Positions 20,821-53,604 of a stretch of 54,110 nt of DNA are shown one piece after another. The position numbers and the translations under genes are program-made. Location of the stretch: positions 1 to 54,110 of IMG/VR virus record IMGVR_UViG_3300042484_002120; one strand, written 5' to 3'. The notes below the pieces were generated by a model that did not search any database, was not told the DNA's origin, and saw only the letters and a program-made list of their open reading frames with translations. Each line of letters opens with the position of its first letter. The first letter of the stretch is position 1. This stretch comes from a virus.

Positions 20821-21039
20821 ATGCGTGAACAAATAGGCAAAAATCAAAAATCTAGCCCTGCTGACTTTTTGAAATCAGACACGGAATTTGCACCAACTGC
20901 ACTTCAGCGTGAGCGTTACTCAATCTGTAAGGAATGTCCAGAACTTACAAAAGTTACAAAACAGTGCAAGCAGTGTGGTTGCTTTATGAACCTTAAAGTG
21001 AAACTAAATCACGCAGTCTGCCCACTAGGCAAGTGGTAG
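20821..21039 (+). CDS. Small zinc-ribbon protein
   Basis: A 72-residue protein with C-x2-C (I-C-K-E-C-P), a second C-K-Q-C-G-C set and a last Cys in A-V-C-P-L-G-K-W at the C-terminus. This arrangement of about six cysteines with a terminal C-P-L-G-K-W is a recurrent small phage protein seen near tail genes. It likely binds one zinc ion. Function unknown. The last 15 bp overlap the end of the convergent glycosyltransferase gene. Confidence 0.6.
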   Translation: MREQIGKNQKSSPADFLKSDTEFAPTALQRERYSICKECPELTKVTKQCKQCGCFMNLKVKLNHAVCPLGKW

Positions 21040-22095
21040 TTCTAGCTCGTAGAAGCCCTTGCCCCAAAGCCCTTGCAAACGGGTGAAGTACTTCTCGTAC
21101 ATTAAGCCAACAGCGTCTAACCCGTAGCGGTCTTTTGAGTATTTACTTATTAAAGACCTATCAAGGGTCTTGACTTTCTCAGTTGCATCTGCAAACTCCT
21201 GCATTGTATGGCACCGGAATCCGGTCACTCCGTCAATGACGGTTTCAGTGAAAGCGCCCCAGTCTGTGGAAATAATCGGAGAGCCACAAGCCATAGCTTC
21301 AATCGCTACGGTCCCAAAAGGCTCAACGTAAATAGTTGGGGTAAAAGTAGCAATTGCCCCACCCATGAGTCTGGCTCGCTCCTCGGTTCCCACAACGCCA
21401 ACATACTCGCCATAGTCGGGCGCAGAACCCTGTCCAGCGACCACCAGACGCTTTCCTAGGGCCTTACAGACGTCAACTGCAATCTGATAGCCCTTGCGCT
21501 CAATAAGACGTCCTATGAACAAATAATAGTCATCTGGCGTTTCTTGTAAAGGGAAATCTTGAATATCAATATAACTTGGGATTACCGTGTCGTAGAACTT
21601 ACCGTCAAGGGCGTGTGGGTCGGTCACCTTGGAGCCGTAGCAGGAGTGCATCCAGGCGTAGGACTCAAAAACCTTGTAGTTGGCAAACGAGCCACCATAG
21701 CCAATTCCAAACTCTACGCTCAACTCATCGGGGAACGCATCGGCAATCGGCTTGGAAGCAAATCCAGCGATAAGGCAAATGAAGTCCTTGTGTTCTAGGC
21801 GCTCTTGGATTCCTTTAATTGCATTGCCATTGAACTCAACCCAATGTGGAAGGTTCCAGTCAAACGAGGCGGCCGAGTAATGATTATTACCAACAGCCTC
21901 TAAGCGCTGTTCTTCCGTAATACAGGTGATGTGCTCATCGCAGGGAGCCTCGTTGAACTCTCCACCGTAAAGAAACACGGTATGCCCGAGGTCTTTCATC
22001 ATGATGCAGAACTTACGGACTTTTTCCGTGTAGGCACAAGCCGTGAAGTCTTCAGTGGTGTTCGTGTGAGGCAGGGAAACTACATGAAATCTCAT
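21025..22095 (-). CDS. Family 4 (GT-B) glycosyltransferase
   Basis: A 356-residue protein. The C-terminal half has Y-L-F-I-G-R-L-I-E-R-K-G at about residue 192 and E-P-F-G-T-V-A-I-E-A-M-A-C-G-S-P-I-I-S-T at about 262, which is the E-x7-E nucleotide-sugar motif of GT4 retaining enzymes. Length is normal for the family. It transfers a sugar from a nucleotide donor; acceptor unknown. It stands at the start of the fibre array, next to collagen-like proteins rich in Gly-Pro-Thr. Threonines in such repeats are O-glycosylated in some bacterial collagens (BclA of Bacillus). So it may glycosylate fibres; alternatively it alters the host surface. No membrane segment is visible. Confidence 0.85.
   Translation of the reverse strand: MRFHVVSLPHTNTTEDFTACAYTEKVRKFCIMMKDLGHTVFLYGGEFNEAPCDEHITCITEEQRLEAVGNNHYSAASFDWNLPHWVEFNGNAIKGIQERLEHKDFICLIAGFASKPIADAFPDELSVEFGIGYGGSFANYKVFESYAWMHSCYGSKVTDPHALDGKFYDTVIPSYIDIQDFPLQETPDDYYLFIGRLIERKGYQIAVDVCKALGKRLVVAGQGSAPDYGEYVGVVGTEERARLMGGAIATFTPTIYVEPFGTVAIEAMACGSPIISTDWGAFTETVIDGVTGFRCHTMQEFADATEKVKTLDRSLISKYSKDRYGLDAVGLMYEKYFTRLQGLWGKGFYELELPLA

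Positions 22096-28501: not shown

Positions 28502-28502
<1 letters not shown>
26916..28502 (-). CDS. Fibronectin type III tail protein
   Basis: A 528-residue protein with two Fn3-like domains (about residues 16-112 and 113-205, each with W-T-A-P or W-S-V-P, Y-T-V and Y-Y-F-R-V-A-A-V-N-A-V-G type motifs). A middle beta region follows (210-330), with a C-terminal domain (F-I-V-D-F-S-N-T, W-T-A-P-S...G-G-G-R-V-R-V-R) that matches the end of the + strand protein at 18705-20798. Its ATG overlaps the stop of the upstream fibre gene (TAATG at 28502). Probably a virion surface adhesin. It looks like a divergent paralog of the + strand Fn3 protein with fewer Fn3 copies. Confidence 0.7.
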
Positions 28503-29500
<998 letters not shown>

Positions 29501-29533: not shown

Positions 29534-29821
29534 CTAAAACCACCAGAAGTGTTTAAGGATTGAAAGGCTAGCCAGAATTACCCACAGCACATTGAAGAGA
29601 ATGATTGTGGGGAGTGTCTTTTTCGTAGATGTCCAAATCAGGGCGACGCTGGAGATGATGGCGAAGATGTAGAGCCACCAGAACTGCTTGCCTAGTAAAA
29701 GGCCAGGAAAGATGATGGCAATCTTGGTGGAGAAACCCCATGCTTCAACAATGTTGACTCGTGTCCAGTATTCTTTGGAACTCATTGTTTTTACTGCTGA
29801 AATGATTTTCTTAAAAAACAT
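29534..29821 (-). CDS. Small three-helix membrane protein
   Basis: A 95-residue protein with three hydrophobic segments (about residues 32-48, 50-64 and 72-90), rich in Trp, and a charged N-terminus (M-F-F-K-K-I-I-S-A-V-K). I do not recognise a family. Its ATG is separated from the P450 ATG on the other strand by only 16 bp, which hold a palindrome with possible -10 boxes for both genes, and it has no ribosome site. It could be co-regulated with the P450 and might be a membrane partner, but no function can be stated. Confidence 0.55.
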   Translation of the reverse strand: MFFKKIISAVKTMSSKEYWTRVNIVEAWGFSTKIAIIFPGLLLGKQFWWLYIFAIISSVALIWTSTKKTLPTIILFNVLWVILASLSILKHFWWF

Positions 29822-29837
29822 GTCTAGAATCTAGCAT
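29822..29837. promoter_or_regulatory. Overlapping divergent leaderless promoters around a CTAGA-A-TCTAG palindrome
   Basis: The 16-bp gap between the two start codons is nearly filled by CTAGAATCTAG, an 11-bp palindrome with one central base. Read on +, it gives TAGAAT (five of six matches to the -10 consensus) at 29825-29830, 7 nt before the P450 ATG. Read on -, it gives TAGATT 6 nt before the ATG of the membrane protein. Neither gene has a ribosome site. This is the geometry of leaderless mRNAs, which are common in Actinobacteria. No clear -35 is seen. Confidence 0.5.
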
Positions 29838-31070
29838 ATGCCCATAAACGTAAACAACCTTGAAATGCCTTTCTTAAACTCTCGTGTAGAGATGAAGAAC
29901 GAGGACTATTCCCGTGAGGACTTTTTTAACATGGCTCGGGATGTGGCAGACAAGTCATGGATTGCCCGTAGCGCCGTAGGGTACAACATTTTTCATCATG
30001 ACGATATTTCTGCAATCATGAGAGATAGACGCTGGCATAGTGCTTTAGGCATTTTGGCTGATTTGAACCCATTCACAACACCTGATTTTAAACGCCGCCG
30101 TAAAACATCAATTATTGCAATTGACGGTGAGGAACATAATCGTTTAAAGCGCCTGCTTACCCCTCACTTCAGCCCATCTATCGCAGATGACCTTCGCCCA
30201 TTTATGCGTGATGTAGTTAATGAACTAGTAGATAAATTTATTGGAAATGGAGAAGCGGATATCGCAGCAGATATTTCACGGCAATATCCAGTAAGAATAA
30301 TTTGCCACCTCCTTGGCATACCACACGATGACTTGGATAGATTTAGCAAATGGGCAGTTGACATGTTGAGAAATTTTGACATGAACTATGAAAAATCTAC
30401 AGAATCAATCCTTCAGTCCCAAAAAGAGATGGATGAATATGTAGAAGGATTCATTGAACTTCGCAGAGCAAACCCACAAGATGACCTCATCTCCATGTTA
30501 GTCAACGCTGAAGATAATGGTGATGTTCTTTCTAATGAAGAAATAATGACACTAATTGAAGCGCTAATGATTGCAGGGATTGACACAACACAGAACCAGT
30601 TAAGTACTGCCGTTTCTATACTTATAGATAACCCAACAGCATGGTCACTTCTTTCCGAAGACCCCAGTAGTGCCAAATTTATCGTGGAGGAACTGATGCG
30701 TATGAACGGTTCAGTATCCAATACGGGGAGAATTGCCGCAGAGGACATTGAATACAGGGGAGTATTATTTCCTAAAGGAACAATAATGTTCGTCAATCTG
30801 GCTGTAGCCAACTACGACATGTCTACATTTGTGAACCCTGACGAGTTTATTCATAATCGTAGAGAACTTGAATCAATGCATATGTCTTTTGGGATGGGGC
30901 TTCACTACTGCCTTGGGGCACCAATTGCTCGTGCCGAAATACAAGAAGCGCTTATCATTATTGCAAACAGGCTAAAAAACATTCAGCGCAATGGTGAAAC
31001 TATTTATAAAGACGAAAACTCTGCCGTGTACGGCCCTGTTTCGCTCCCGGTAACATTTTCTAAATACTGA
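29838..31070 (+). CDS. Cytochrome P450
   Basis: A complete 410-residue class-I-type bacterial P450. All hallmarks are present: H100-N-R in the C-helix region (G-E-E-H-N-R-L-K-R), the I-helix oxygen-activation motif A246-G-I-D249-T250-T251, the E285-L-M-R288 pair (ExxR), and the haem loop F351-G-M-G-L-H-Y-C358-L-G with the thiolate Cys358. It should be a soluble cytoplasmic haem monooxygenase that needs a ferredoxin and reductase; none is visible in the window, so host partners are implied. Substrate unknown. It is the only long + strand gene inside the - strand fibre array and converges on the halogenase operon. P450 genes are rare in phages. I see no frameshift or missing residue. Confidence 0.95.
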   Translation: MPINVNNLEMPFLNSRVEMKNEDYSREDFFNMARDVADKSWIARSAVGYNIFHHDDISAIMRDRRWHSALGILADLNPFTTPDFKRRRKTSIIAIDGEEHNRLKRLLTPHFSPSIADDLRPFMRDVVNELVDKFIGNGEADIAADISRQYPVRIICHLLGIPHDDLDRFSKWAVDMLRNFDMNYEKSTESILQSQKEMDEYVEGFIELRRANPQDDLISMLVNAEDNGDVLSNEEIMTLIEALMIAGIDTTQNQLSTAVSILIDNPTAWSLLSEDPSSAKFIVEELMRMNGSVSNTGRIAAEDIEYRGVLFPKGTIMFVNLAVANYDMSTFVNPDEFIHNRRELESMHMSFGMGLHYCLGAPIARAEIQEALIIIANRLKNIQRNGETIYKDENSAVYGPVSLPVTFSKY

Positions 31071-31141
31071 AGTTCTTCCTCTGACATCACTATGCCAACC
31101 TGAAGAAGCATGGCTTTGAGCTTCTCTAAACGTTCATCCAT
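31004..31141 (-). CDS. 45-residue protein overlapping the 3' end of the P450 gene
   Basis: A short frame, M-D-E-R-L-E-K-L-K-A-M-L-L-Q-V-G...E-E-E-L-Q-Y-L-E, starts at 31141 on the stop of the 222-residue gene (TAATG) and ends at 31004, so its last 22 codons lie antisense to the P450 end. The translational coupling and a helical, charged N-terminus support a real gene, but the antisense part may be passive. Function unknown. It would be the last gene of the - strand halogenase operon. Confidence 0.45.
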   Translation of the reverse strand: MDERLEKLKAMLLQVGIVMSEEELQYLENVTGSETGPYTAEFSSL

Positions 31142-31809
31142 TATAGTTCGTCCATAATCTGCTCAAATGACTTTTCTGGGTAGTCAATTGTCAATTGGGT
31201 AATCCAGTCTTTAAATTCTTGAGACGCTTCAGGGTATGGATGAGGAATCGACTTATAGTTTTCTTCACCCTTTAAGAACTTGGCCAAATGCATATCGGGC
31301 AATGCGTCTATTTCTTCAAGAATCGATTGTGGAATATCGAGAGTTTCAAAAACCAGTTTAGAATATGCGGCCATTGGGTGGTCTGAATTGAATGGCTCTT
31401 CTGCCATGAATGACCATTCGCGCATGTTTTTGAACAATTGAAATATTGACTTGGCGCCCCACATTGTTGACGGCGTGGGGTCAGTCTCCGAGTCATGCCA
31501 TTCATTCATCTCTAGGTAACCAAAAAGGAATTTAGGGTGTAAAACTATTGGAAATGCAAACTTGGCAACTTTAAGTACTTCCAGCTTGACTTCAGAAACT
31601 ACTGTTTTGTCATACCAAGAATGGGCGTGGTTAGCATATTCTGTTCCTTCTGATACGAGAAGGCCTGTGTATGTAAGATTGTCGCACCGGTCTAAACTTG
31701 AGTTTTTGCCGGTGTTTGTTCCCTCTTGTAAAAATTCACTTTTTAATAAAATAAAAACACCCTTTAAAGAAGGGTCCGAACTGCGGAGAAGTATTTCTGG
31801 TTCAAGCAT
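31141..31809 (-). CDS. Unknown protein of the halogenase operon (222 aa)
   Basis: A soluble 222-residue protein with an AGGAG ribosome site. Its start overlaps the end of the 79-residue gene by 8 bp. It is rich in aromatics and His (H-A-H-S-W-Y-D at about 62, E-W-H-D-S-E-T-D at about 104, H-P-K-F-L-F-G-Y at about 92). The first 100 residues look like beta strands and the rest is helical. I do not recognise the family. Several His/Asp/Glu residues might form a metal site, but no pattern is diagnostic. Its tight linkage to halogenase and oxygenase genes suggests it serves the same pathway, perhaps as another oxygenase or a substrate carrier; this is a guess. Confidence 0.6.
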   Translation of the reverse strand: MLEPEILLRSSDPSLKGVFILLKSEFLQEGTNTGKNSSLDRCDNLTYTGLLVSEGTEYANHAHSWYDKTVVSEVKLEVLKVAKFAFPIVLHPKFLFGYLEMNEWHDSETDPTPSTMWGAKSIFQLFKNMREWSFMAEEPFNSDHPMAAYSKLVFETLDIPQSILEEIDALPDMHLAKFLKGEENYKSIPHPYPEASQEFKDWITQLTIDYPEKSFEQIMDEL

Positions 31810-32041
31810 TTTCTAGCTCCTGAATTTTATTTACTATAACAATCATTTGTTTACATCTTTTTTCTAATTGACCACTGTGCGACAATATAGGAGAATTGGG
31901 AATTGCCTCAAAAGAAGAGTAGTCAAAAACATCAGGGTCTAAACCGCAGCGAAAACAAAGTTTATACACCTCAACTGATATCGCTTTTTTCATTTCATAA
32001 AGCGCAGAAATCTTACTTTCTACTTCGCTGAATTCAGACAT
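31802..32041 (-). CDS. Small GLDPD protein A (79 aa)
   Basis: A 79-residue, mainly helical protein with a central C-G-L-D-P-D-V-F-D-Y motif (about residues 33-41). It is clearly related to the 76-residue protein at 35346-35576: both share E-x-K-x-x-A-L near the N-terminus, then an I-x-x-x-x-Y helix, R-x-G-L-D-P-D-x-(F/Y)-D and a helical C-terminus. The two paralogs bracket the halogenase operon. Four cysteines are present but not spaced like a zinc finger. Function unknown; a small helical chaperone or partner protein is possible. Confidence 0.6.
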   Translation of the reverse strand: MSEFSEVESKISALYEMKKAISVEVYKLCFRCGLDPDVFDYSSFEAIPNSPILSHSGQLEKRCKQMIVIVNKIQELENA

Positions 32042-32048
32042 GTTTGTC

Positions 32049-32846
32049 TCATCTCTGCTTATTGATTAACCTAGCAATTATACCTTGCTTGTCATTTTGA
32101 TTTTCTAATTGCTTGTCTACACGGATTCGCTCCCTGCGGTAAGGTGCTGCCGTTCCATCACGTGGAGCAACGTGGCCCATCCCAAACCCAGTAGTAGCAA
32201 CGTATTTAAAGTAAGACTCGTCATTGAAGTCTATTTTTTCAAAATCTGCGTTGCGTTTAAATGGGACTAACTGGACTAGAGGGGTTCCGTGTTTTATCCC
32301 AAAAGGGCGGTCTGTGGTTATGTTTAAAACCACATTCGCTAGGTGATAGAAGTCCGTATGAACCACAGCTGGAACTACCGTATAGTTCTCGTTAGGTTCC
32401 CAGTAGACCGGGAGAATCATTGTTGACCAGCCTGGTGCAGTCTCAAACCTCCATGGATTCACTATTTTGGGATACTGTCCTGTTTCCAGTTTTCTTACGC
32501 TCGTCATAGGGCACTCACCTGTTGACTCATAACCAAAACCTGAAATATTAGCTATTCCGGCTTCAGGACTAAATTCATCAGCACCGTGTTCCCAGCCACC
32601 TGCGCCATCTGGCCTAAATCTAAAATTGGTCCACGCTGGCAAAGTGACTCCAGCAGATAAAAAATCTATAGTTCCAGCACACTTACGCAAGGAGCCTTGA
32701 TGTTTTCCAATTTGCCTAAACCACTGAGGTGGCTGAGAAATAGAATTTACAGTTGGCGGAGATTCCATCAAGCGATTATCAACAGGAGTAAACCTAATAA
32801 CCCCAGGCTTCACCTTTGGTAATTTTTTCATTTCATTGCCATTCAC
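32049..32846 (-). CDS. DUF6065-like protein next to the halogenase
   Basis: A 265-residue protein whose ATG lies 14 bp inside the end of the halogenase gene; an in-frame ATG at 32831 is a possible later start. The stretch W-R-F-E-T-A-P-G-W-S-T-M-I-L-P-V (about residue 131), the H-T-D-F-Y segment and H-G-T-P-L-V-Q-L-V-P-F-K-R (about 189-201) resemble, from memory, the uncharacterised DUF6065 family (cupin-like beta fold), but this was not checked. It is tightly coupled to the halogenase, so it may bind or deliver the substrate, or be a second modifying enzyme. Confidence 0.6.
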   Translation of the reverse strand: MNGNEMKKLPKVKPGVIRFTPVDNRLMESPPTVNSISQPPQWFRQIGKHQGSLRKCAGTIDFLSAGVTLPAWTNFRFRPDGAGGWEHGADEFSPEAGIANISGFGYESTGECPMTSVRKLETGQYPKIVNPWRFETAPGWSTMILPVYWEPNENYTVVPAVVHTDFYHLANVVLNITTDRPFGIKHGTPLVQLVPFKRNADFEKIDFNDESYFKYVATTGFGMGHVAPRDGTAAPYRRERIRVDKQLENQNDKQGIIARLINKQR

Positions 32847-34341
32847 TGTCTGTGTATCTGATTTCCCTCAAAGCCTCTGCGTGGTCAACAAGTTCGTGCG
32901 CATGTCTACTGTGACGTATTTCGTCAATTTTTTTATTTACTTCTTGTCGCAAATTGGTTGTGTTAAGAGCTCTAACGCATCCAACAACACCTATCAAGCC
33001 TTGACCTTGTGCAACATGGGCCATGTGAGGGGTTAAAAACATCTCGCCTGAAGTTGAATCAAAGTCGTATCTAGACGGAGGCACTTCAGCCCACAAATCT
33101 ATGATTGATTGAAGTTCTTCATTGATTGGCATGTGGGACATTGTTTCCCAAAATTTAGAATCAGTACGGTCAGAATAATAATGAAGCCTAATCATGGAAA
33201 GAATATTATTCATCATTTTCGTAAACTTCGCATTAAAGTGTTTTTGCGAAGCATGATTAGACGGCATGTACGAAGCAATGTAAGGCAGCATGAACCGCAC
33301 TTGTTGAATTGTTGAACCTATGCTTGTTGCTTCTAGTGGCTCAACAAATGAGGAAGCTAAACCAACGGCACAGCAATTATTCACCCAGCATTCTTTTAAA
33401 TGCCCTGCATCAAACGAAATGACGCGAGGATTTTCAATTTTGTATCCGGACATTTCTTCGGCTTCATGTATAGCCTCGTCTTGGCTAATAAATTGAGAAG
33501 AAAAAACATACCCGTTACCGCGACGTTCTTGTGTTGGTATTTCCCACATCCAGCCAGCACTTGCTGCTCTAGCGCGAGTGTATGGTCTTATCCTGCCGTT
33601 TGGGTCGCTTTCTGTTGGGAACGGAATCGCGGTGTCGCACAAAAGGTATTTGTCAAAAGAAACCCACTCATCCGCATCTAGTTCTTTCATTAAAACACGA
33701 TTAAAACCGCTTGCATCAAACCAGAAGTTTGCACTGACAGTGTCTCCGTGGTTTGTTTCAATAGATTCAATATTGCCGTACGTACTGTCTCTGGTCACTT
33801 TCTTGACCTCGGCATCCACGAACTTAATATTTCTCTTAAACGCTAGTGACGTAAAGTAATCGTTAAGTTTGTTTGTATCAAAATGAAACTGATTTGTAGA
33901 TTTGTGCAAATTTTGTCTATTGATTTTATCTTTTACCAGACCTACGCTTGTTGTCTGGGTCGTAAACAGTTTGTTTTTTTCTACCATTCCCATATAGGTC
34001 GCATAAAGCCCAAAAGCATAGATGTCGTCAATTTCACCAACGCTGTGGAAATAGTCCTTAGTGTGGGTTGACCAATTTTCAAACCTTAATCCGTACTTAT
34101 GCGTAGCGGCAGTGGCTTCAATCATCTCTTCCAATGGAATCTCGCACAAGTCCATGAACGTTTTCCAGTGCTCAGTGCTTCCTTCTCCAACGCCAATGAT
34201 GCCAATCTTGGAGGATGAAACAATTGTTATTTCAGCCCACGGAAAAGACTGCCTAAGTATCAGTGCTGTTATTAGTCCTGCAGTTCCTGAGCCAACGATT
34301 CCAAAAACTAGAGGCCTATTTAGTTCGGTATTTTCGTTCAT
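32833..34341 (-). CDS. Flavin-dependent halogenase (tryptophan halogenase family)
   Basis: A 502-residue protein. Residues 14-22 hold the FAD dinucleotide motif G-I-V-G-S-G-T-A-G. The catalytic lysine that forms or positions hypohalous acid is K82 (T-H-K-Y-G-L-R-F-E-N-W, aligned to K79 of PrnA). The halogenase signature G-W-x-W-x-I-P is at 263-269 (G-W-M-W-E-I-P). E337 in E-P-L-E-A-T matches the second catalytic acid. Length is normal. It should oxidise halide with FADH2 and O2 and halogenate an electron-rich substrate; a flavin reductase must come from the host. A cyanophage halogenase of this family (VirX1) iodinates diverse substrates, so substrate class cannot be read from sequence. No ribosome site is seen; TAGTAT lies 6 nt before the ATG. 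Confidence 0.93.
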   Translation of the reverse strand: MNENTELNRPLVFGIVGSGTAGLITALILRQSFPWAEITIVSSSKIGIIGVGEGSTEHWKTFMDLCEIPLEEMIEATAATHKYGLRFENWSTHTKDYFHSVGEIDDIYAFGLYATYMGMVEKNKLFTTQTTSVGLVKDKINRQNLHKSTNQFHFDTNKLNDYFTSLAFKRNIKFVDAEVKKVTRDSTYGNIESIETNHGDTVSANFWFDASGFNRVLMKELDADEWVSFDKYLLCDTAIPFPTESDPNGRIRPYTRARAASAGWMWEIPTQERRGNGYVFSSQFISQDEAIHEAEEMSGYKIENPRVISFDAGHLKECWVNNCCAVGLASSFVEPLEATSIGSTIQQVRFMLPYIASYMPSNHASQKHFNAKFTKMMNNILSMIRLHYYSDRTDSKFWETMSHMPINEELQSIIDLWAEVPPSRYDFDSTSGEMFLTPHMAHVAQGQGLIGVVGCVRALNTTNLRQEVNKKIDEIRHSRHAHELVDHAEALREIRYTDSEWQ

Positions 34342-34357
34342 TATTGAATACTAACAC
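34342..34357 (-). promoter_or_regulatory. Possible leaderless promoter of the halogenase gene
   Basis: On the - strand, TAGTAT is followed by 6 nt and the halogenase ATG, in the short gap after the oxygenase gene. No ribosome site is present. The same TAGTAT, 6 nt, ATG arrangement stands before the winged-helix gene at 50650. TAGTAT matches four of six bases of the -10 consensus, so this is suggestive only. Confidence 0.35.
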
Positions 34358-34942
34358 CTATTTAAACCAAGAGACAAGAGAGTATTTCGTACCCTGAATA
34401 ACAGGGTGAGCGATATGGAGGTAAGGAAAATTGCTTGGGAACAAAATTACAGAACCTAATTTTGGTTCAACCGTTACGCCAAATGTTGGGAATTCCAATT
34501 CTCCACCTAATTCAGGTTCACCAAGTATTGTCACAACACTAAAAACTCGCGAGTTATCTCTAAAGTGGTCATAATGAGCATGATACTCAGAGCCTGGAAG
34601 ATACTTCAAAACAGAATAAGGCTCGTGAAAGCCATTTGGCAACATGTGTTCTTCTGAGTAATCCCTTATCGCTTTTTCCATTGGAAGGCGAACAGCAGAA
34701 TCAAACAAGCGAGACAAGTCGGTTGGCTCATACGGCTTCATTAGTGGAATTAATCCGCACTCTAATGAAGTTCGGTAGGAAGTGACCGACCCTCCTTCTC
34801 CAACCCCAGAGTTCCCCCAAGTGAGTTCACTCCACTCATTTTCTGCTTCTGTATTTAAACAGTCTATGAAATTAGCAACACTTGACGGGTCTAGCATCTC
34901 TTCATAAACAGAAATGCATGTTGCTGGGGATACGTGATTCAT
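34358..34942 (-). CDS. 2-oxoglutarate/Fe(II) oxygenase, prolyl 4-hydroxylase-like
   Basis: A 194-residue protein with the jelly-roll oxygenase signature. H123-Y-D125 (A-H-Y-D-H) supplies two iron ligands, H179 (H-P-V) the third, and K186 after H-P-V-I-Q-G-T-K binds 2-oxoglutarate. P-x-x-G-S-V-I-L-F-P at about 160-169 is the usual strand before the distal His. Length fits the stand-alone P4H-like group. It would hydroxylate a protein side chain or a small molecule using O2 and 2-oxoglutarate. The genes around it encode many Pro-rich collagen-like fibres, so these prolines are one candidate substrate; a small molecule shared with the halogenase is the other. The start overlaps the upstream gene by 4 bp. 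Confidence 0.88.
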   Translation of the reverse strand: MNHVSPATCISVYEEMLDPSSVANFIDCLNTEAENEWSELTWGNSGVGEGGSVTSYRTSLECGLIPLMKPYEPTDLSRLFDSAVRLPMEKAIRDYSEEHMLPNGFHEPYSVLKYLPGSEYHAHYDHFRDNSRVFSVVTILGEPELGGELEFPTFGVTVEPKLGSVILFPSNFPYLHIAHPVIQGTKYSLVSWFK

Positions 34943-35349
34943 ATTGCCTCAAATTCTCCTGAATAATACCGGTTTCCATCAGGAGAGCAAACGATAAAAG
35001 TTTTTTTGCCAGGAGTCGTTATACGAGGCCTAAATCTTATTATGTGATTTTCTCTTAATCTAGGAACAAAAACTTCAGTACCGTTGTTTCCTGTAATGCG
35101 CAAAGTGGTTTTTTTATTAAAAACTACAAACTCATTAGTAATGTCAATACTGTAAATAAATCCAGTTTTTGCGGTTTGTTTAAATTCAATATTATTCACT
35201 TCTGGAGTTGAAATAATGGAGATTTTATTAGCAAAAATACCATCTTCTTGATTGCCGTATCTTATTTGCAGACCAGAAAGTTTTGCTAACTTTTCTGCTT
35301 CACCGGCTTCATTAGTTATATTCCAGGGAATATAAACAAATCGCTTCAT
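34939..35349 (-). CDS. Unknown beta-rich protein of the halogenase operon (136 aa)
   Basis: A 136-residue protein with no recognised domain. The sequence (F-V-Y-I-P-W-N-I-T-N-E-A-G-E-A-E-K-L-A-K...F-V-V-F-N-K-K-T-T-L-R-I-T-G...T-F-I-V-C-S-P-D-G-N-R-Y-Y-S-G-E-F) suggests mostly beta strands. It overlaps both neighbours by 4 bp (ATGA), so it is made together with the oxygenase. It may be a partner or a structural protein. Codon use looks like that of its neighbours, rich in A and T. Confidence 0.55.
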   Translation of the reverse strand: MKRFVYIPWNITNEAGEAEKLAKLSGLQIRYGNQEDGIFANKISIISTPEVNNIEFKQTAKTGFIYSIDITNEFVVFNKKTTLRITGNNGTEVFVPRLRENHIIRFRPRITTPGKKTFIVCSPDGNRYYSGEFEAI

Positions 35350-35576
35350 GACAATTCGGCTATTTTGCTTTCAATTAAATCAAGAGACGAAATCAAGGTG
35401 TTTACCCTGGTGCGCTCGCCAACAAAAGAATCAATTGGGTCACTTGCCAGCAAAGGGTCATAAGCATCAGGGTCTAGGCCCATGCGAATTAATTGAGTGT
35501 AGATGTCTGTTTGAATTCCACTTTTAACAGAATTCAAAGCCATCAATTTTTGTTCATTTGTAAGACCAAGGTCCAT
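35346..35576 (-). CDS. Small GLDPD protein B (76 aa)
   Basis: A 76-residue helical protein with R-M-G-L-D-P-D-A-Y-D (about residues 31-40). It is a paralog of the 79-residue protein at 31802-32041: the central helix-GLDPD-x-aromatic-D block aligns without gaps. It starts the halogenase operon and lies 9 bp after the His-rich fibre gene start region, so it may be transcribed with the fibres from upstream. Function unknown; small size and two copies suggest a binding or chaperone role. Confidence 0.6.
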   Translation of the reverse strand: MDLGLTNEQKLMALNSVKSGIQTDIYTQLIRMGLDPDAYDPLLASDPIDSFVGERTRVNTLISSLDLIESKIAELS

Positions 35577-35585
35577 CTTTTTCTC

Positions 35586-37592
35586 CTAAATATTTATAAG
35601 AACGTATGCTGACCCAGAAGAGGCAGCAAAGTTGTCTGAATCTGCTGTTAGACCTGCGCGAGTGTCGTATGTAATTGTACCCGCTACCGAGTCACTAACT
35701 ACGAGAATAGCACCTCCGCCACCTGCGCCGCCTCGCTTGCCGGTTGTTCCCGTACCGCCTGAGCCACCTGCTCCGCCTGTGCCACCTGCTCCTCCGGAAC
35801 CTCCGGAACCGCCTGCTCCTCCTGCTCCGCCTGCTCCTCCTGCTCCTCCTGCTCCTCCTGCTCCGCCTGCTCCGCCTGCTCCTCCTGCTCCTCCTGGATA
35901 AACGGTTGGAGGGTTTGCTACTGAAGTTGGAGCATTGGGGTGGTGGGACCACGTGTTGGTTCTGGTTGGGGAGTGAGAATGCGCACCATGAGCGGGCGTG
36001 TGGGCGTTGGGATGAGTGTGATATTCATGGGTTGAATGAGGTGTCCAATGATTATCGTGACCTATGAATCTCCCGTGATACCTACGGTCGTCGTGTCCAC
36101 CCTCACTGCTGGGATGACTGTGTCCGCCATGTCCGTTTGGCTTTGCATGGTAATGAGGGAATGGATAGTGATGACTTAACTGAAAGTAAGCATGCCACCA
36201 GTGAGGGTTCCAGTGATGCGAGCCACCATGGGGGCCATCATTGTGCGGATGGTGTTCATGTCCATTGTGATGATGATGTGGATTTGCGTGGTGATGCGGA
36301 GTTCCTCTATGAAAGTGATGAGGGGTCGCGTGGGCATAATGGTGACCCTTGATATCTGAAGCATGTACGTGTTCCTGAACGTTTTCGTGCTGTTGAGTAT
36401 GGGCTCTTGTGGCATGACCATGAAAGTTTGAATGATTTGTGTAGTGGTGATGATGGGATGGATTATGTGTTGCAGCATTTGGGTGCGTATGTGGCGCGTT
36501 GTGAACACTCAATGATGGAGCGGAGCCTCCAGGACTTCCAGTAGCACCAGTGCTTCCAGATGCCCCAGCAGCGCCAGCGGCTCCAGATGCTCCTACCGCT
36601 CCAGATGCTCCAGATGCCCCAACAGGACCACTCGCTCCAGATGAACCCGTTGCTCCTGATGAACCTGATGAACCAGTTGTACCCGAAGAACCTACGGAAA
36701 TAAACTTTCCTGACCCAATAATGTGTTTAGCGACCACACAGACGATTCCTCCACCAAGACCGCCTGCTCCTCCAGCGCCGCCTGCTCCTCCTAAACCAGG
36801 GGAGCCAGTTGCGCCAGGACTACCAGAAGAACCAGGACTACCAGAAGAACCAGGGCTTCCGCTTGCTCCACTGCTTCCAGTTGCCCCAGCAGTACCCGAC
36901 GCTCCGACAGAACCAGGATTACCCTGTCCGCCAGAAGCACCAACTGTTGTTGCTGACGGTCCATATGAACCTGTTGCTCCAGGGGAACCTGTTGCACCAG
37001 CAGAACCAGGACTACCAGTTGCGCTAGCGGGCGTACCAGTTGCTCCAGCAGAGCCAGTTGCTCCAGGGCTTCCTGTGGCACCTGCGCTTCCTGTTGCTCC
37101 AGGACCTGTTGCTCCAGAAGGGCCTTGTGAACCAGATGCGCCTTTAGACCCTCCACCAATAGGAATCATCCCTGTGGTGTGCATGAACACTCCACCAGAC
37201 ATTGCGTTGATGTCTTTGTATAGATATTCAGGAAGTGCGGTTATTCCAGGGCTAGTTCCGCCTCCACCTTGTCCACCAGCACGATAAGTAATCGCGGATT
37301 GAGAATGGCCTTTGACTGTTCCGTCAGAAACGGTAGATGCGGCTTCACCAACTGTCCCAGAAGAGACAGAACCAATTCCGATGTAGCCATTATTTGTAAG
37401 AGTGTTCTTAACAAAGACTCGGTAGCCATTTGTATTGAGGAAAACGTCTGCATTAATCACCAGATTGTTATAGAACATGTCTGACGTAATCGCTGTGTTT
37501 GATGTTACGACTACGTCGCCGTCCCCACCATGTCCGTATATTTCGTCATTAGCAGCACGAGCAACGCTTTTTTCAATTCTAGAAATAGCCAT
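35586..37592 (-). CDS. Collagen-like and histidine-rich tail fibre
   Basis: A 668-residue protein with an AGGTG ribosome site. Residues about 15-75 form a module shared with the 254-residue protein encoded upstream (Y-G-x-G-x-D-G-D...G-Y-R-x-F-V-K). Then come collagen-like Gly-Ala-Thr/Ser tracts (150-265 and 303-358), a Gly-rich core with G-G-G-I-V-C-V-V-A-K at 280, and residues 362-555 containing 58 histidines in 194 residues with many HxH and HHH clusters. A long G-G-A tract and a C-terminal strand G-G-G-G-A-I-L-V-V-S-D follow. The His domain should bind divalent metals. It looks like an insertion into the simpler scaffold of the neighbouring gene. Probable virion fibre. Confidence 0.75.
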   Translation of the reverse strand: MAISRIEKSVARAANDEIYGHGGDGDVVVTSNTAITSDMFYNNLVINADVFLNTNGYRVFVKNTLTNNGYIGIGSVSSGTVGEAASTVSDGTVKGHSQSAITYRAGGQGGGGTSPGITALPEYLYKDINAMSGGVFMHTTGMIPIGGGSKGASGSQGPSGATGPGATGSAGATGSPGATGSAGATGTPASATGSPGSAGATGSPGATGSYGPSATTVGASGGQGNPGSVGASGTAGATGSSGASGSPGSSGSPGSSGSPGATGSPGLGGAGGAGGAGGLGGGIVCVVAKHIIGSGKFISVGSSGTTGSSGSSGATGSSGASGPVGASGASGAVGASGAAGAAGASGSTGATGSPGGSAPSLSVHNAPHTHPNAATHNPSHHHHYTNHSNFHGHATRAHTQQHENVQEHVHASDIKGHHYAHATPHHFHRGTPHHHANPHHHHNGHEHHPHNDGPHGGSHHWNPHWWHAYFQLSHHYPFPHYHAKPNGHGGHSHPSSEGGHDDRRYHGRFIGHDNHWTPHSTHEYHTHPNAHTPAHGAHSHSPTRTNTWSHHPNAPTSVANPPTVYPGGAGGAGGAGGAGGAGGAGGAGGAGGAGGSGGSGGAGGTGGAGGSGGTGTTGKRGGAGGGGAILVVSDSVAGTITYDTRAGLTADSDNFAASSGSAYVLINI

Positions 37593-37593
37593 A

Positions 37594-38357
37594 TCACACC
37601 TGTGACATATAGTAGACGGTTCCTGGGTTTTGTCCAGTTACATCAGTGGTTATTCCAGGAGCCAATACTTCAGCAGAAGAAACGATGAGAATTACTCCTC
37701 CGCCTGCAGGGGCAGTTCCCGGCGCTTTGATGTAAGCCGTGCCTGACGCTGGTCCAGAAATGTAGCGAGCAGCAATGATAACTATTCCGCCCCCAACTTG
37801 ACCTAGTCCGCCAGCACCTCCACGCAAAAAGGTAGGACCACCTGCAGCAGTGACGGAATAACCAGTAATTGCTTGTCGTGGAATTCTGAAGTAGTTAGCG
37901 CCACCCATTGATGAGTGGGGAACAGTTGCCAAGACGCCAGTCGCGGCTCCACCTAAAGAATGAAGTACTGGTTCCAGTATTCCTCCGCCCTGGGCGATAG
38001 AGCCAGCGGTTGCAAAACCGGTCGTGTAACCAATCGTTGAGTTGGTTCCCATGAACTTTAATGTGCCCTTAACGAAGATTCTGTATCCGTCGGGCTGTAG
38101 GCGGCAACTCGTATTGATGGTCAAATCGTTGAAGTACATATCGCGCGTCATTGTATAGACACTCGCAGACGGAGCCATGCTTAGGACTGTCGTGGTTCCG
38201 TCAAGTACAGCATCGCCGTCAGCGCCTGTTCCATAAACAGAGTCAACGGATTCGTTAAAGTAGGCATTCCAGACTGTTCCATCAAATTGCCAACTCTTAG
38301 AGCCGACAGTAAATATTTGATTTACATACGGAGAAGCAGGAAAAGTAATCGCTGGCA

Positions 38358-38358
<1 letters not shown>
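37594..38358 (-). CDS. Tail fibre scaffold protein, paralog of the His-rich fibre
   Basis: A 254-residue protein. Its N-terminus (P-A-I-T-F-P-A-S-P-Y-V-N-Q-I-F...W-Q-F-D-G-T-V-W) recalls the N-terminal module of the collagen fibres. Residues about 39-105 (Y-G-T-G-A-D-G-D-A-V...D-L-T-I-N...G-Y-R-I-F-V-K-G-T-L) and the end (G-G-G-I-V-I-I-A-A-R-Y-I-S-G ... G-G-G-V-I-L-I-V-S-S) match the first and last parts of the His-rich protein, without its collagen and His domains. It starts on the stop of the 49-residue gene (TAATG). A minimal fibre head is likely. Confidence 0.6.
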
Positions 38359-41935
<3,577 letters not shown>

Positions 41936-50740: not shown

Positions 50741-51025
50741 GTGCTTAAAGATGCACTAAGAGCTGTAGCCCAGGGCGAAAGCAAAAAGACATGCAAGTTT
50801 GGTTCCATAACCACTTCGCTGGATAACGAAACCAGAGAGGCACTTATTCTTGCTATGGCAAGCGAAGCGTCCACTATGGATATTACAAGAGCACTTTGTT
50901 CTGACGGTCACTCCATAGGGAGAGATGTTGTTGGCGTAAAAAGGGCATGTTTCAAGGACCCGTCCTTCAACTGCTGTATCCGTGAAACTATCGATAGCTG
51001 TATAGCAAAGAACGAAGGTAAATAA
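50741..51025 (+). CDS. Small HTH-like protein (94 aa)
   Basis: A 94-residue protein starting at GTG 50741 with GGAGGA ribosome site. Residues about 30-62 (T-R-E-A-L-I-L-A-M-A-S-E-A-S-T-M-D-I-T-R-A-L-C-S...I-G-R-D-V-V-G-V-K-R) look like a helix-turn-helix, and five cysteines are present (residues 18, 53, 70, 77-78 and 87 or nearby). It overlaps the metallophosphoesterase start. Possibly a DNA-binding partner of it. Family not recognised. Confidence 0.5.
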   Translation: MLKDALRAVAQGESKKTCKFGSITTSLDNETREALILAMASEASTMDITRALCSDGHSIGRDVVGVKRACFKDPSFNCCIRETIDSCIAKNEGK

Positions 51026-52215
51026 TGTCCGCAAAGAAAGAAACTCTCTCTTCAGCCTTGGGGTCCATGGCTAAGGAAAAGAAGAAATCTGAAGAAAACA
51101 AGAAGGTCCTGGAGTCAATTGCAGAAATGCTCCGACTTAAAGACATTAGTCTCGACGATGTTGGTGATATTAAAAAGATAACAATTAACCAGTCTTCTAC
51201 CCAAAACCCAGAAAACCCTTCTGAGACAAGGGAATCAGCTCGTGTAGCAATCCAGTTTTCACCCAAATGGGACAACGGCCCAGAGTGGCCAATAGTCCAA
51301 CAAAGTAAGCCCATACAACTACAAAAGACAACGACAAAACCCAAAGCATCAACTGGGTTCAAAACGTGTGTTGTGGTCCCTGATATACAGATAGGTTTCT
51401 TCCGAAATAAAGACGGAGAACTAGAGCCATCACATGATGACAAGGCTATCGACATCGTTTTGGCGATGATAAAGAAGCTTCAGCCGGAATTAATTGCCTG
51501 TGTTGGGGATAACTTGGACCTTCCAGAGATGGGCAAGTATGTCACTTATCCTGCATATGCCCAAACCACCCAAGCTTCGATAGATAGGGCCGCAATGTTT
51601 TGCGCTCAAATGCGAGCCGCAGCCCCAAATGCCAGAATTGTCTGGCTGGCTGGTAACCATGAAGAAAGAATGCCCAAGTATCTAGTCCAAAATGCTGGAG
51701 CAGCCTATGGATTAAGAAAAGGCAACACCCCAGAATCCTGGCCAGTACTTTCAGTCCCTTATCTTTGCCGAATGGAAGACTATGGAGTTGAGTACAAGCC
51801 CGGATATCCGGCAGCCGACCTGTGGATAAACAAGAAATTACGAATTATTCATGGAGACCGTGTTAAGTCTTCTGGCTCAACTGCCCATGTATATCTAAAC
51901 AATGAGAAACATTCTGTCATTTACGGCCATATCCACCGTATTGAGACAGCTTTCAAGACCAGAGAAGATTTTGACGGTGCCCGTACCATCATGGCTGCTT
52001 CACCTGGATGCCTTTGTCGTACAGATGGGGCGATTCCGTCCACTCGTGGAGGCGTAGACCTTGATGGTCGCCCTCTCACAAGGCATGAAAACTGGCAACA
52101 AGGCGTTGGAGTAGTCACATACGAAGATACCGGCAAGCACAAGTTCTCCTATGAAGTAGCACCGATATACAACGGCTGGTGCATGTTCCGTGGAGTAGAG
52201 TACATCGCGGAATAA
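51025..52215 (+). CDS. Calcineurin-like metallophosphoesterase
   Basis: A 396-residue protein. From residue 115: V-V-V-P-D120-I-Q122 (DxH motif with Gln in place of His), G161-D162-N163, G210-N211-H212-E213, H276-G and G301-H302-I-H304. This is the full set of metal ligands except the first His; the DxQ variant is common in phage copies. The N-terminal 110 residues are charged and helical with a Pro/Thr linker, perhaps for DNA or protein binding. It probably cleaves phosphodiesters (nuclease or phosphatase); the substrate is unknown. The stop overlaps the next start (TAATG). Confidence 0.85.
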   Translation: MSAKKETLSSALGSMAKEKKKSEENKKVLESIAEMLRLKDISLDDVGDIKKITINQSSTQNPENPSETRESARVAIQFSPKWDNGPEWPIVQQSKPIQLQKTTTKPKASTGFKTCVVVPDIQIGFFRNKDGELEPSHDDKAIDIVLAMIKKLQPELIACVGDNLDLPEMGKYVTYPAYAQTTQASIDRAAMFCAQMRAAAPNARIVWLAGNHEERMPKYLVQNAGAAYGLRKGNTPESWPVLSVPYLCRMEDYGVEYKPGYPAADLWINKKLRIIHGDRVKSSGSTAHVYLNNEKHSVIYGHIHRIETAFKTREDFDGARTIMAASPGCLCRTDGAIPSTRGGVDLDGRPLTRHENWQQGVGVVTYEDTGKHKFSYEVAPIYNGWCMFRGVEYIAE

Positions 52216-52856
52216 TGACTACTATCGTCGGAATCCAGGGTGATGGCTTTGCCGTAGTGGGATGCGATACCCGCATCTCCTCCTTTGGCGACTCCGGAGA
52301 TGCGTACCAGATATCTACTCTGGGCAATGGCTCAAGCAAAATCGCCGCAAATGGCAAATATTTGCTTGGTGCAGCTGGCGAAATGCGAGCAATTAACATA
52401 TTGCACCATGTATTCCAACCCCCTCCTGTTACTCCAGGACTAAGGGGAAAGAAGCTTGATGCCTTTATTACGGGTAAATTTATCCCAAGTTTACGAGCTT
52501 GCTTTGATTCCCAAGGGTATTCCCCTCCTGATTCCGGTGACTCTAAAGAGCACAGAGCAGAACAAGGCTCCTCGATTGTTGTTGTGATAAACGGCGTAAT
52601 CTACATTATTGAGTCAGACTATAGTTGGACAGCAGAGGCTAATTACCTTTACTCCGTAGGGACAGGTTCTTCTTATGCTCTGGGTTCTTTACATTCCCTA
52701 CTAGGGAATAAACGCCCAACCCCAACTCAAGCTAGGTCTGCCTGCACAAAGGCTCTGACCGTGGCTTCCAAGTTTGACCCTTATACGGGTGCTCCTTTAC
52801 AGACTTTCGTCCAAGAAGCCCCCAACCGGAAGTCTTCAAATAAAGACCCTGAATAA
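52215..52856 (+). CDS. Proteasome-beta-like Ntn hydrolase
   Basis: The ATG at 52215 (TAATG overlap) gives 213 residues; an upstream frame start at 52179 would hide the active site. After removal of Met the N-terminus is T1-T-I-V-G-I-Q-G-D-G-F-A-V-V-G-C-D17-T-R-I-S, the pattern of proteasome beta and HslV, with the nucleophile Thr1 and Asp17 in place. K41-I-A-A-N-G-K-Y-L-L-G-A-A-G-E takes the place of the K33 segment, with about 8 more residues in the loop. Residues 70-105 hold an insertion relative to the family. It should be a threonine peptidase, cytoplasmic, in a ring or alone. Actinobacteria have a 20S proteasome, so it could interfere with or mimic it. Confidence 0.75.
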   Translation: MTTIVGIQGDGFAVVGCDTRISSFGDSGDAYQISTLGNGSSKIAANGKYLLGAAGEMRAINILHHVFQPPPVTPGLRGKKLDAFITGKFIPSLRACFDSQGYSPPDSGDSKEHRAEQGSSIVVVINGVIYIIESDYSWTAEANYLYSVGTGSSYALGSLHSLLGNKRPTPTQARSACTKALTVASKFDPYTGAPLQTFVQEAPNRKSSNKDPE

Positions 52857-52926
52857 CAAACGGCCCCTTCTTCAAGAGGCTATGTAGTTTCGAAAACCCT
52901 AGGAATCCCCATAGGGGAGAAACAAC
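52857..52926. terminator. Hairpin between convergent genes
   Basis: CCCTA and TAGGG flank GGAATCCCCA in the 70-bp gap where the Ntn hydrolase and the - strand gene converge. It could terminate both ways, but no T-run is clear. Weak evidence. Confidence 0.3.
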
Positions 52927-53172
52927 CTACTTAGCTAGAGACCGTATGTCTGAGTAACAAGCGTGGAGTGCCTCAGCAACGGTTTCTTTCGTTCCCGAAC
53001 CAGATACTAATACTGAGTTCTTCTCTCGTGACCATGCGTTACACATCCAGCTATTACCGATATGTAGTAACTCAAAGTCCATGTTCATTAACTGAAACCA
53101 CTTTGTGTATTGGTTTATGTCATTAGAGGAACTGGTTATTGGTTCTTGTGGGTGTCCGTAGATAACTGGCAT
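52927..53172 (-). CDS. Unknown small protein (81 aa)
   Basis: An 81-residue protein (V-I-Y-G-H-P-Q-E-P-I-T...W-F-Q-L-M-N-M-D-F-E-L-L-H-I-G-N-S-W-M-C-N-A-W-S-R...T-V-A-E-A-L-H-A-C-Y-S-D-I-R) with a beta hairpin and a C-terminal helix. It stands alone and divergent from the WhiB gene. The shape (beta strands, then helix) is like small phage proteins of unknown role. No motif recognised. Confidence 0.5.
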   Translation of the reverse strand: MPVIYGHPQEPITSSSNDINQYTKWFQLMNMDFELLHIGNSWMCNAWSREKNSVLVSGSGTKETVAEALHACYSDIRSLAK

Positions 53173-53182
53173 AACTCAAGTA

Positions 53183-53269
53183 TTACACAAATGAGTTTAC
53201 TAATACCGTATCAAGGTTGTGTATTTAAGTGTGCTGTAATTAATGCAAATCTATTTAAAGGATACACAA
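53183..53269. promoter_or_regulatory. TACACAA repeats in front of the WhiB gene
   Basis: TTACACAA (53183-53190), TTGTGTAT (53217-53224) and ATACACAA (53262-53269) lie in the divergent gap; the last two form a perfect 8-bp inverted pair, and the last ends 2 bp before the GTG start. AAAGGAT is the ribosome site. Possible binding sites of WhiB itself or of a phage regulator. Confidence 0.4.
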
Positions 53270-53271
53270 TA

Positions 53272-53604
53272 GTGGCCAAAGAAAAAACTACCAATAATAA
53301 TAGTCAACCGTTAGAGGGATTGTATATTGGCAGAAAAGACTGGTTTCCCTATGCTGCTTGCAAAGGATTAACCAACCTAATGTTCCCCAAAGAACATAAG
53401 GACATTACCTATATAGCGGAAGCTAGAAGGATATGTAGTAATTGCCCTGTTAAGCCTCAGTGCTTGGAGTATGCACTTGAGTTTCCGGCAGCCGATATGC
53501 ATGGAGTATGGGCAGGATTGACTAGTAGACAGTTGGCTGCAGAGCAGAGGCGAAGAGGGGTAAAGCCGACTAGGCCGACTCTTGCACAGATGTGGGGGCA
53601 CTAA
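53272..53604 (+). CDS. WhiB-like iron-sulphur transcriptional regulator
   Basis: Starting at GTG 53272, it gives 110 residues. Four Cys (C30, C55, C58, C64; C-x24-C-x2-C-x5-C) bind a [4Fe-4S] cluster, and G78-V-W-A-G-L matches the G-V/I-W-G-G turn. The basic C-terminus (R-R-R-G-V-K-P-T-R) binds DNA. The family is limited to Actinobacteria and their phages, so this gene identifies the host phylum. It may act on host promoters with the sigma factor, as phage WhiB proteins do. A longer reading from 53110 is open but lacks a ribosome site. The stop overlaps a 23-codon gene. Confidence 0.9.
   Translation: MAKEKTTNNNSQPLEGLYIGRKDWFPYAACKGLTNLMFPKEHKDITYIAEARRICSNCPVKPQCLEYALEFPAADMHGVWAGLTSRQLAAEQRRRGVKPTRPTLAQMWGH

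Follow-up and report, generated by a model that had tools for sequence, protein, structure and literature searches.

A conserved block of enzyme genes directly behind one His-rich tail-tip gene in the virus record IMGVR_UViG_3300042484_002120 (54.1 kb, 54,110 nucleotides, referred to here as the window) suggests that these enzymes chemically complete the attachment protein of the virus itself and are not random metabolic cargo. The block encodes a flavin-dependent halogenase (HAL), a prolyl 4-hydroxylase (P4H)-like 2-oxoglutarate (2OG) oxygenase and D265, a protein with a dUTPase-like fold, and is accompanied in the window by a cytochrome P450. We regard it as evenly balanced whether this late, fibre-linked cassette serves to hydroxylate and halogenate the tail-tip adhesin, the P450 being an accessory. 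The window encodes a contractile tail with a sheath (PHROG 23) and a tube, and fibre genes of the Gly-X-Y and Gly-rich kinds form an array on its minus strand. The nearest relatives of the sheath are found in Gordonia, Arthrobacter and Brevibacterium phages and the record has a WhiB-like gene, so an actinobacterial host is likely, in agreement with the preliminary description of this DNA. The phage group carrying the cassette apparently infects freshwater actinobacteria.

The proposed substrate, a putative tail-tip adhesin, is a Gly/collagen-repeat fibre protein (35586..37592, minus strand) which matches the Collagen family (Pfam ID PF01391, E value 5e-8) and contains 9.3% His, 15 HxH motifs, 18 Tyr and 5 Trp. 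The Gly-rich fibre protein FIB254 (37594..38358) is encoded directly upstream on the same strand. Downstream of the adhesin gene, after a 9-bp gap, follow on the minus strand s76 (35346..35576), u136 (34939..35349), the P4H-like oxygenase (34358..34942), HAL (32833..34341), D265 (32049..32846), s79 (31802..32041) and u222 (31141..31809), the spacings from s76 to u222 ranging from -8 to +16 bp. The preliminary description had proposed a minus-strand operon of eight genes, which holds for these seven, whereas the eighth, encoding the small hydrophobic 95-residue protein TM95 (29534..29821, minus strand), is split off by the P450 gene (29838..31070, plus strand) and lies 1,319 bp away. Promoter and terminator scans stayed within about one standard deviation of shuffled sequences, so the operon call rests on spacing and strand, according to which the His-rich fibre and the downstream enzymes appear to form one transcription unit.

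All three enzymes named in the preliminary description are encoded by intact open reading frames among the fibre genes of this actinobacterial myophage fragment. HAL matches PF04820 with an E value of 7e-101 (338.7 bits, cut-off 21) and belongs to PHROG 2928. The GxGxxG motif, the catalytic Lys, the WxWxIP motif and the catalytic Glu are kept in 80 to 81 of the 81 aligned sequences; the residues pointed out earlier, K82, GWMWEIP and E337, are all present, with K82 and E337 invariant (81/81). HAL shares its fold family, GxGxxG, catalytic Lys, GWxWxIP and catalytic Glu with the bacterial halogenase 6frl, which is of the BrvH type, and with the tryptophan halogenases PrnA and RebH. Unlike PrnA and RebH, HAL is part of a cassette and not of a biosynthetic cluster, and the C-terminal substrate region of PrnA is unaligned with it. 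H101, F103 and a C-terminal Tyr/Glu/Trp set are the Trp-binding residues of PrnA, with F103 among those that sandwich the Trp. In the alignment to PrnA, HAL keeps the His (H101), the F103 position is a Val, and the C-terminal part falls outside the match.

The oxygenase matches PF13640 (E value 2e-13, 51.4 bits, cut-off 27), and its best PDB relatives are bacterial prolyl 4-hydroxylases (PDB ID 3itq/5hv0) at only 33 bits; prolyl specificity is putative. With these enzymes and the P4H of Chlorella virus PBCV-1 it shares the 2OG-FeII_Oxy_3 domain, the Fe and 2OG ligands and a location near collagen-like proteins. Residue conservation assigns the Fe ligands to H123, D125 and H176 and 2OG binding to K186. 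H123, D125 and K186 had been named before, whereas H179, then given as a ligand, is a His in 61 of 99 sequences and is replaced by H176 (His in 97 of 99) as the distal Fe ligand.

A HAL search of IMG/VR yielded 80 loci, and gene calling and clustering resulted in 53 loci after dereplication, the window included, with HAL identities to the window of 45 to 100%. In 38 of them, at least 4.5 kb upstream and at least 3.5 kb downstream of HAL are available (full-flank loci). Genes in the relatives were called by a simple longest-ORF rule by which small genes may be missed, and the loci are related by descent, meaning that percentages do not represent independent trials. D265 was called in 36 of the 38 full-flank loci, and the two exceptions (L048 and L074) are positive by tblastn; the P4H-like oxygenase was called in 37, the exception (L038) again being positive by tblastn. 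The other genes are more variable, with u136 in 33, s76/s79 in 35 and u222 in 22 of these loci. A search seeded with FIB254 instead of HAL gave the same picture in 56 homologous loci, including two variants (L110 and L111) with other genes and without the P4H. Wherever a close FIB254 homologue was followed by enough sequence, the His-rich fibre and then HAL-D265 came downstream. The core therefore consists of HAL and D265, nearly always with the 2OG oxygenase, and the remaining genes are modular. The adhesin genes, HAL, the D265 homologue and the 2OG oxygenase are contiguous on one strand, as in a cassette of the VirX1 type.

These data bear on the question of whether the enzymes belong together. 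Cargo genes that are useful independently of each other might simply gather beside fast-evolving fibre genes without a common pathway. This would account for the P450, which is optional and found on either strand, and for the variable genes between P4H and HAL (c6, c12, c19 and a long u222), but not for the HAL-D265 and 2OG oxygenase order being kept across HAL identities of 45 to 95%, nor for the recurrence of D265 with HAL in the cyanophages Syn10, syn9 and P-TIM40. We consider this explanation, already weakened, to be improbable for the locus as a whole, and for the core we reject independent cargo on account of conserved order and linkage. The earlier suggestion that the fibre locus is a known site for gain of cargo likewise leaves the fixed gene order beside one fibre unexplained. 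The idea that the genes make up a pathway and are not scattered morons is well supported for HAL, the 2OG oxygenase and D265, which are linked across dozens of IMG/VR loci and in distant T4-like cyanophages, but only in part for the P450. Separate occurrence in relatives, given in the preliminary description as the mark of independent cargo, is not seen for the core and applies in part to the P450, without which the core is often found.

The link to the fibre is specific to one fibre class. Fibre proteins adjoining the module have a median His content of 8.9%, with 56 of 59 above 4%, compared to 0.6% in 151 other fibre proteins from the same loci, and the sole other fibre above 4% is encoded on the opposite strand close to the module (L059-L062). 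Counting the latter, a fibre with more than 2.5% His is within reach of the core in all 38 full-flank loci, and the median number of HxH motifs per fibre is 10.5. The fibres of close relatives have the common core GHxHHPHNDGPHGGxHHW(D/N)xHxWHA, while in distant loci the sequence is quite different although the His-rich composition is kept, as in the HNPTGHAHNPPGH repeats of L069. Since a search with the whole His-rich domain returned only close relatives, the DNA was scanned for HHPHNDGPHGG, independently of HAL. The motif was found on 35 contigs, with HAL located 1.8 to 3.1 kb downstream in every stretch that was long enough; the contigs without HAL end before its position is reached. The pairing of fibre and core holds from 45 to 100% HAL identity and outlasts strong sequence change in both partners, which favours a functional link.

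The preliminary description had left open whether the substrate is a small molecule or the fibre protein, and the linkage data point to the fibre. HAL, the 2OG oxygenase and the P450 could instead make or modify a diffusible compound, such as an indole, a phenol, a siderophore-like ligand or a pigment, with the fibre site only setting late expression. P450 and flavin-dependent halogenase families are typical of natural-product tailoring, some phage halogenases sit away from fibres, and in vitro, VirX1 has halogenating activity on many free aromatics (PMC8407142). However, none of the annotated cassette genes was recognised as encoding a scaffold-making enzyme, and the position next to a His-rich fibre in 38 of 38 loci would be unexplained; the Val at the F103 position and the uncovered Trp-binding C-terminal part may count against free Trp only. 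We regard a small-molecule pathway as rather unlikely. Within the fibre itself, Trp is an unlikely universal target, as the L083 fibre has no Trp, whereas all 58 fibres counted have at least 6 Tyr.

The P450 is complete, as described before, and matches PF00067 above the cut-off (E value 3.5e-29, 102.3 bits), as well as TIGR04538 with 2.4e-53, which is below the cut-off of that model. C358 (the heme Cys), the EExxR region and AGxDT (the I-helix acid-alcohol pair) are conserved, the first two in all seven aligned sequences. Its gene converges with the u222 gene, as had been stated, but diverges from that of TM95. A P450 is present in 8 of the 53 dereplicated and 4 of the 38 full-flank loci, and homologues are located at this site in 10 further loci. 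They form two subfamilies, 37% identical, with a common N-terminal motif NVN(D/N)L(E/K). The 37%-identical P450 is found inside the operon at the same spot in seven contigs. The rarity of the P450 and its opposite strand in the window speak against full membership in a pathway, but this recurrence inside the operon makes it an optional accessory and not stray cargo. The gene is co-directional in L031-L037 and L002, starting 8 bp past u222 in the four checked, and reversed in the window, L011, L082 and L083. Since L002 carries the other subfamily despite a HAL 95% identical to that of the window, one P450 appears to have been swapped for the other in this place. Nine related contigs that lack a cassette P450 gave no hit with a P450 profile, which did match the positive contig. 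All P450 homologues found in IMG/VR sit in this cassette, and a search of genome contigs gave one match (25%, Poseidonocella). A phage-encoded P450 is reported for Mycobacterium phage Adler (PMC9405906), likewise an actinobacteriophage; the window P450 differs in that tblastn against 50,697 phage records returned nothing at an E value of 1e-5 or below.

D265 (265 residues, starting at GTG 32846 or ATG 32831) had been described as DUF6065-like. PF19541 has no match to it at E values up to 10, although the model was matched in three control genomes, which rejects DUF6065 membership; instead, it matches PHROG 7084 (E value 9e-24). The AlphaFold2 (AF2) model (pLDDT 89) is similar to dUTPases by Foldseek (E value 6e-5), and VIA aligns 125 residues to the dUTPase fold (Z 10.3, rmsd 4.2, model residues 8-204), so that the predicted structure has a dUTPase-like beta-clip fold. 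The position of the putative catalytic Asp of the VID motif, its equivalence in the alignment being judged by eye, is H or N in most family members, suggesting a binding role. A second D265-like protein (PHROG 17480, weakly PHROG 7084; L069:8104-8850) occurs in several distant loci beside extra 2OG oxygenases. Cyanophages S-RIM4 and Sf-CH8 (L137:7839-8633, L138:7863-8657) encode a D265 homologue, but the region examined contains no halogenase, and D265 may have separate uses.

The small proteins s76 and s79 are paralogues that fall into one cluster found in 73 loci, and u136 is a conserved protein whose cluster is found in 65. The conserved 222-residue protein u222 (cluster in 53 loci) gives an AF2 model with a pLDDT of 90; neither Foldseek nor VIA-align matched it confidently in the PDB, which does not in itself indicate a new fold. 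Longer homologues of about 370 residues lie between the P4H and the halogenase in other loci. TM95 (cluster in 45 loci) usually closes the module, and its best-segment identity among relatives, often 75 to 98%, is far above that of the enzymes. It possibly has a membrane or lysis role.

A similar arrangement exists in a second, distant group of phages with Gly-rich adhesins. In syn9 and Syn10, the adhesins gp38 and gp39 are followed by gp40, a halogenase, a second halogenase, gp43, gp44 and an array of 2OG oxygenases, and P-TIM40 repeats this order. gp43 belongs to the D265 family (PHROG 7084, 1.8e-71; family HMM, 9e-20), and the array comprises several 2OG-FeII_Oxy_3/5 proteins and a JmjC_2 protein (Pfam ID PF08007, 1.3e-16), a family whose known members include protein His/Arg hydroxylases. 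The second Syn10 halogenase, CPUG_00131, is VirX1 (PDB ID 6qgm; 1271 bits over the full length). Adhesins, halogenase and oxygenases are also combined in S-SZBM1, S-WAM1, P-RSM6 and S-RIM44, where no D265 was recognised, and the dioxygenase and halogenase genes of pelagiphage HTVC008M overlap within a stretch of structural genes. The Syn10 cassette differs from that of the actinophages in that no P450 and no collagen-like fibre as His-rich as theirs were recognised, and its halogenase belongs to a distant clade. In the tree, actinophage HAL is sister to the P-SSM2/S-H38 types and far from the syn9/VirX1-type clade, in which syn9 stands for Syn10. As these clades are well separated, the cassette context either goes back to an ancestor and was lost in some lineages, or came together repeatedly.

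For expression, substrate, chemistry and benefit, we infer the following scheme. The 2OG oxygenase would hydroxylate the fibre during or after synthesis, either at Pro in the collagen-like repeats or at loop His/Asn. HAL, with host FADH2 and halide, would halogenate exposed aromatic residues, Tyr or His being likelier than Trp. D265 probably binds HAL or the substrate without hydrolytic activity, s76 and s79 may help in assembly, and the P450, where present, would add a further oxidation. Flavin reductase (PF01613) and Fer4_15 ferredoxin models had no match in the window record, itself a fragment, so the redox partners are assumed to come from the host. Such chemistry would leave the adhesin modified, changing its stability, its metal binding or its affinity for the receptor. 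There is precedent for parts of this scheme: Chlorella virus PBCV-1 has a P4H recorded as forming 4-hydroxyproline in viral proteins, and viral P4H acting on collagen-like fibres was suggested earlier (both according to PMC9301287).

Several points weigh against adhesin tailoring. The halogenases of S-PM2, Syn1, P-SSM2, S-MbCM6 and S-H38 are not beside recognised fibre genes, and one actinophage-type HAL (L064:3517-4959) stands alone, with no D265, P4H or fibre in the available sequence, apparently relocated. Late expression alone could select for fibre linkage, and VirX1 takes many small aromatics in vitro (PMC8407142). By analogy to the His-rich, iron-binding HxH tail fibres of T4 gp37 and alterophage R22Y (PMC11705849), the fibre may just bind metal via HxH motifs without any modification. 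The cassette fibres share the HxH motifs in tail tips with these proteins, but contain more His, have Gly/collagen repeats and come with an enzyme cassette. Finally, all evidence for tailoring is derived from sequence.

The enzymes could also modify a surface structure or a protein of the host, for instance to block superinfection or evade defence, with the virion not being the target. The fibre region does encode glycosyltransferases too, such as a GT1-type enzyme (21025..22095, minus strand; PF00534, 7e-18) which is present in 19 loci, often shortly past the module. This analysis identified neither a secretion signal nor a connection to a host target, and the tight coupling to one fibre gene would be unexplained, making a host target very improbable.

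Elsewhere in the window, the fibre proteins at 28502-29500 and 38504-41905 have a near-identical segment in common, which points to duplication or recombination within the fibre array, and the right end (51025-53604) carries genes for a metallophosphoesterase, an HslV-like peptidase and the WhiB-like regulator. None of the 50,697 phage records was matched in a nucleotide search with the region.

A halogenase has been reported for the Dishui Lake actinophage DSL-LC01, where the accessible part of the report does not mention a fibre or cassette context (PMC10611076). In the open full-text literature, as far as its searchable portions go and with many journals outside its coverage, we found no report of halogenase-adhesin linkage or phage adhesin halogenation, and the novelty of adhesin tailoring by halogenation is provisional.

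Phage halogenases and 2OG oxygenases have for years been listed as unexplained metabolic cargo. The iodination preference of VirX1 was obtained in vitro with surrogate substrates only. The conserved cassette of adhesin, halogenase, dUTPase-fold protein and oxygenase provides one concrete candidate substrate. We tentatively propose, at somewhat less than an even chance, that phages from two or more distant groups modify the receptor-binding tip of their own virions through enzymatic hydroxylation and halogenation, in some cases with an added P450 oxidation, which would give VirX1 a native role. If true, this would be a virion protein modification of a kind not described in the searchable part of the literature, and host recognition would depend on post-translational chemistry and not on the adhesin sequence alone.

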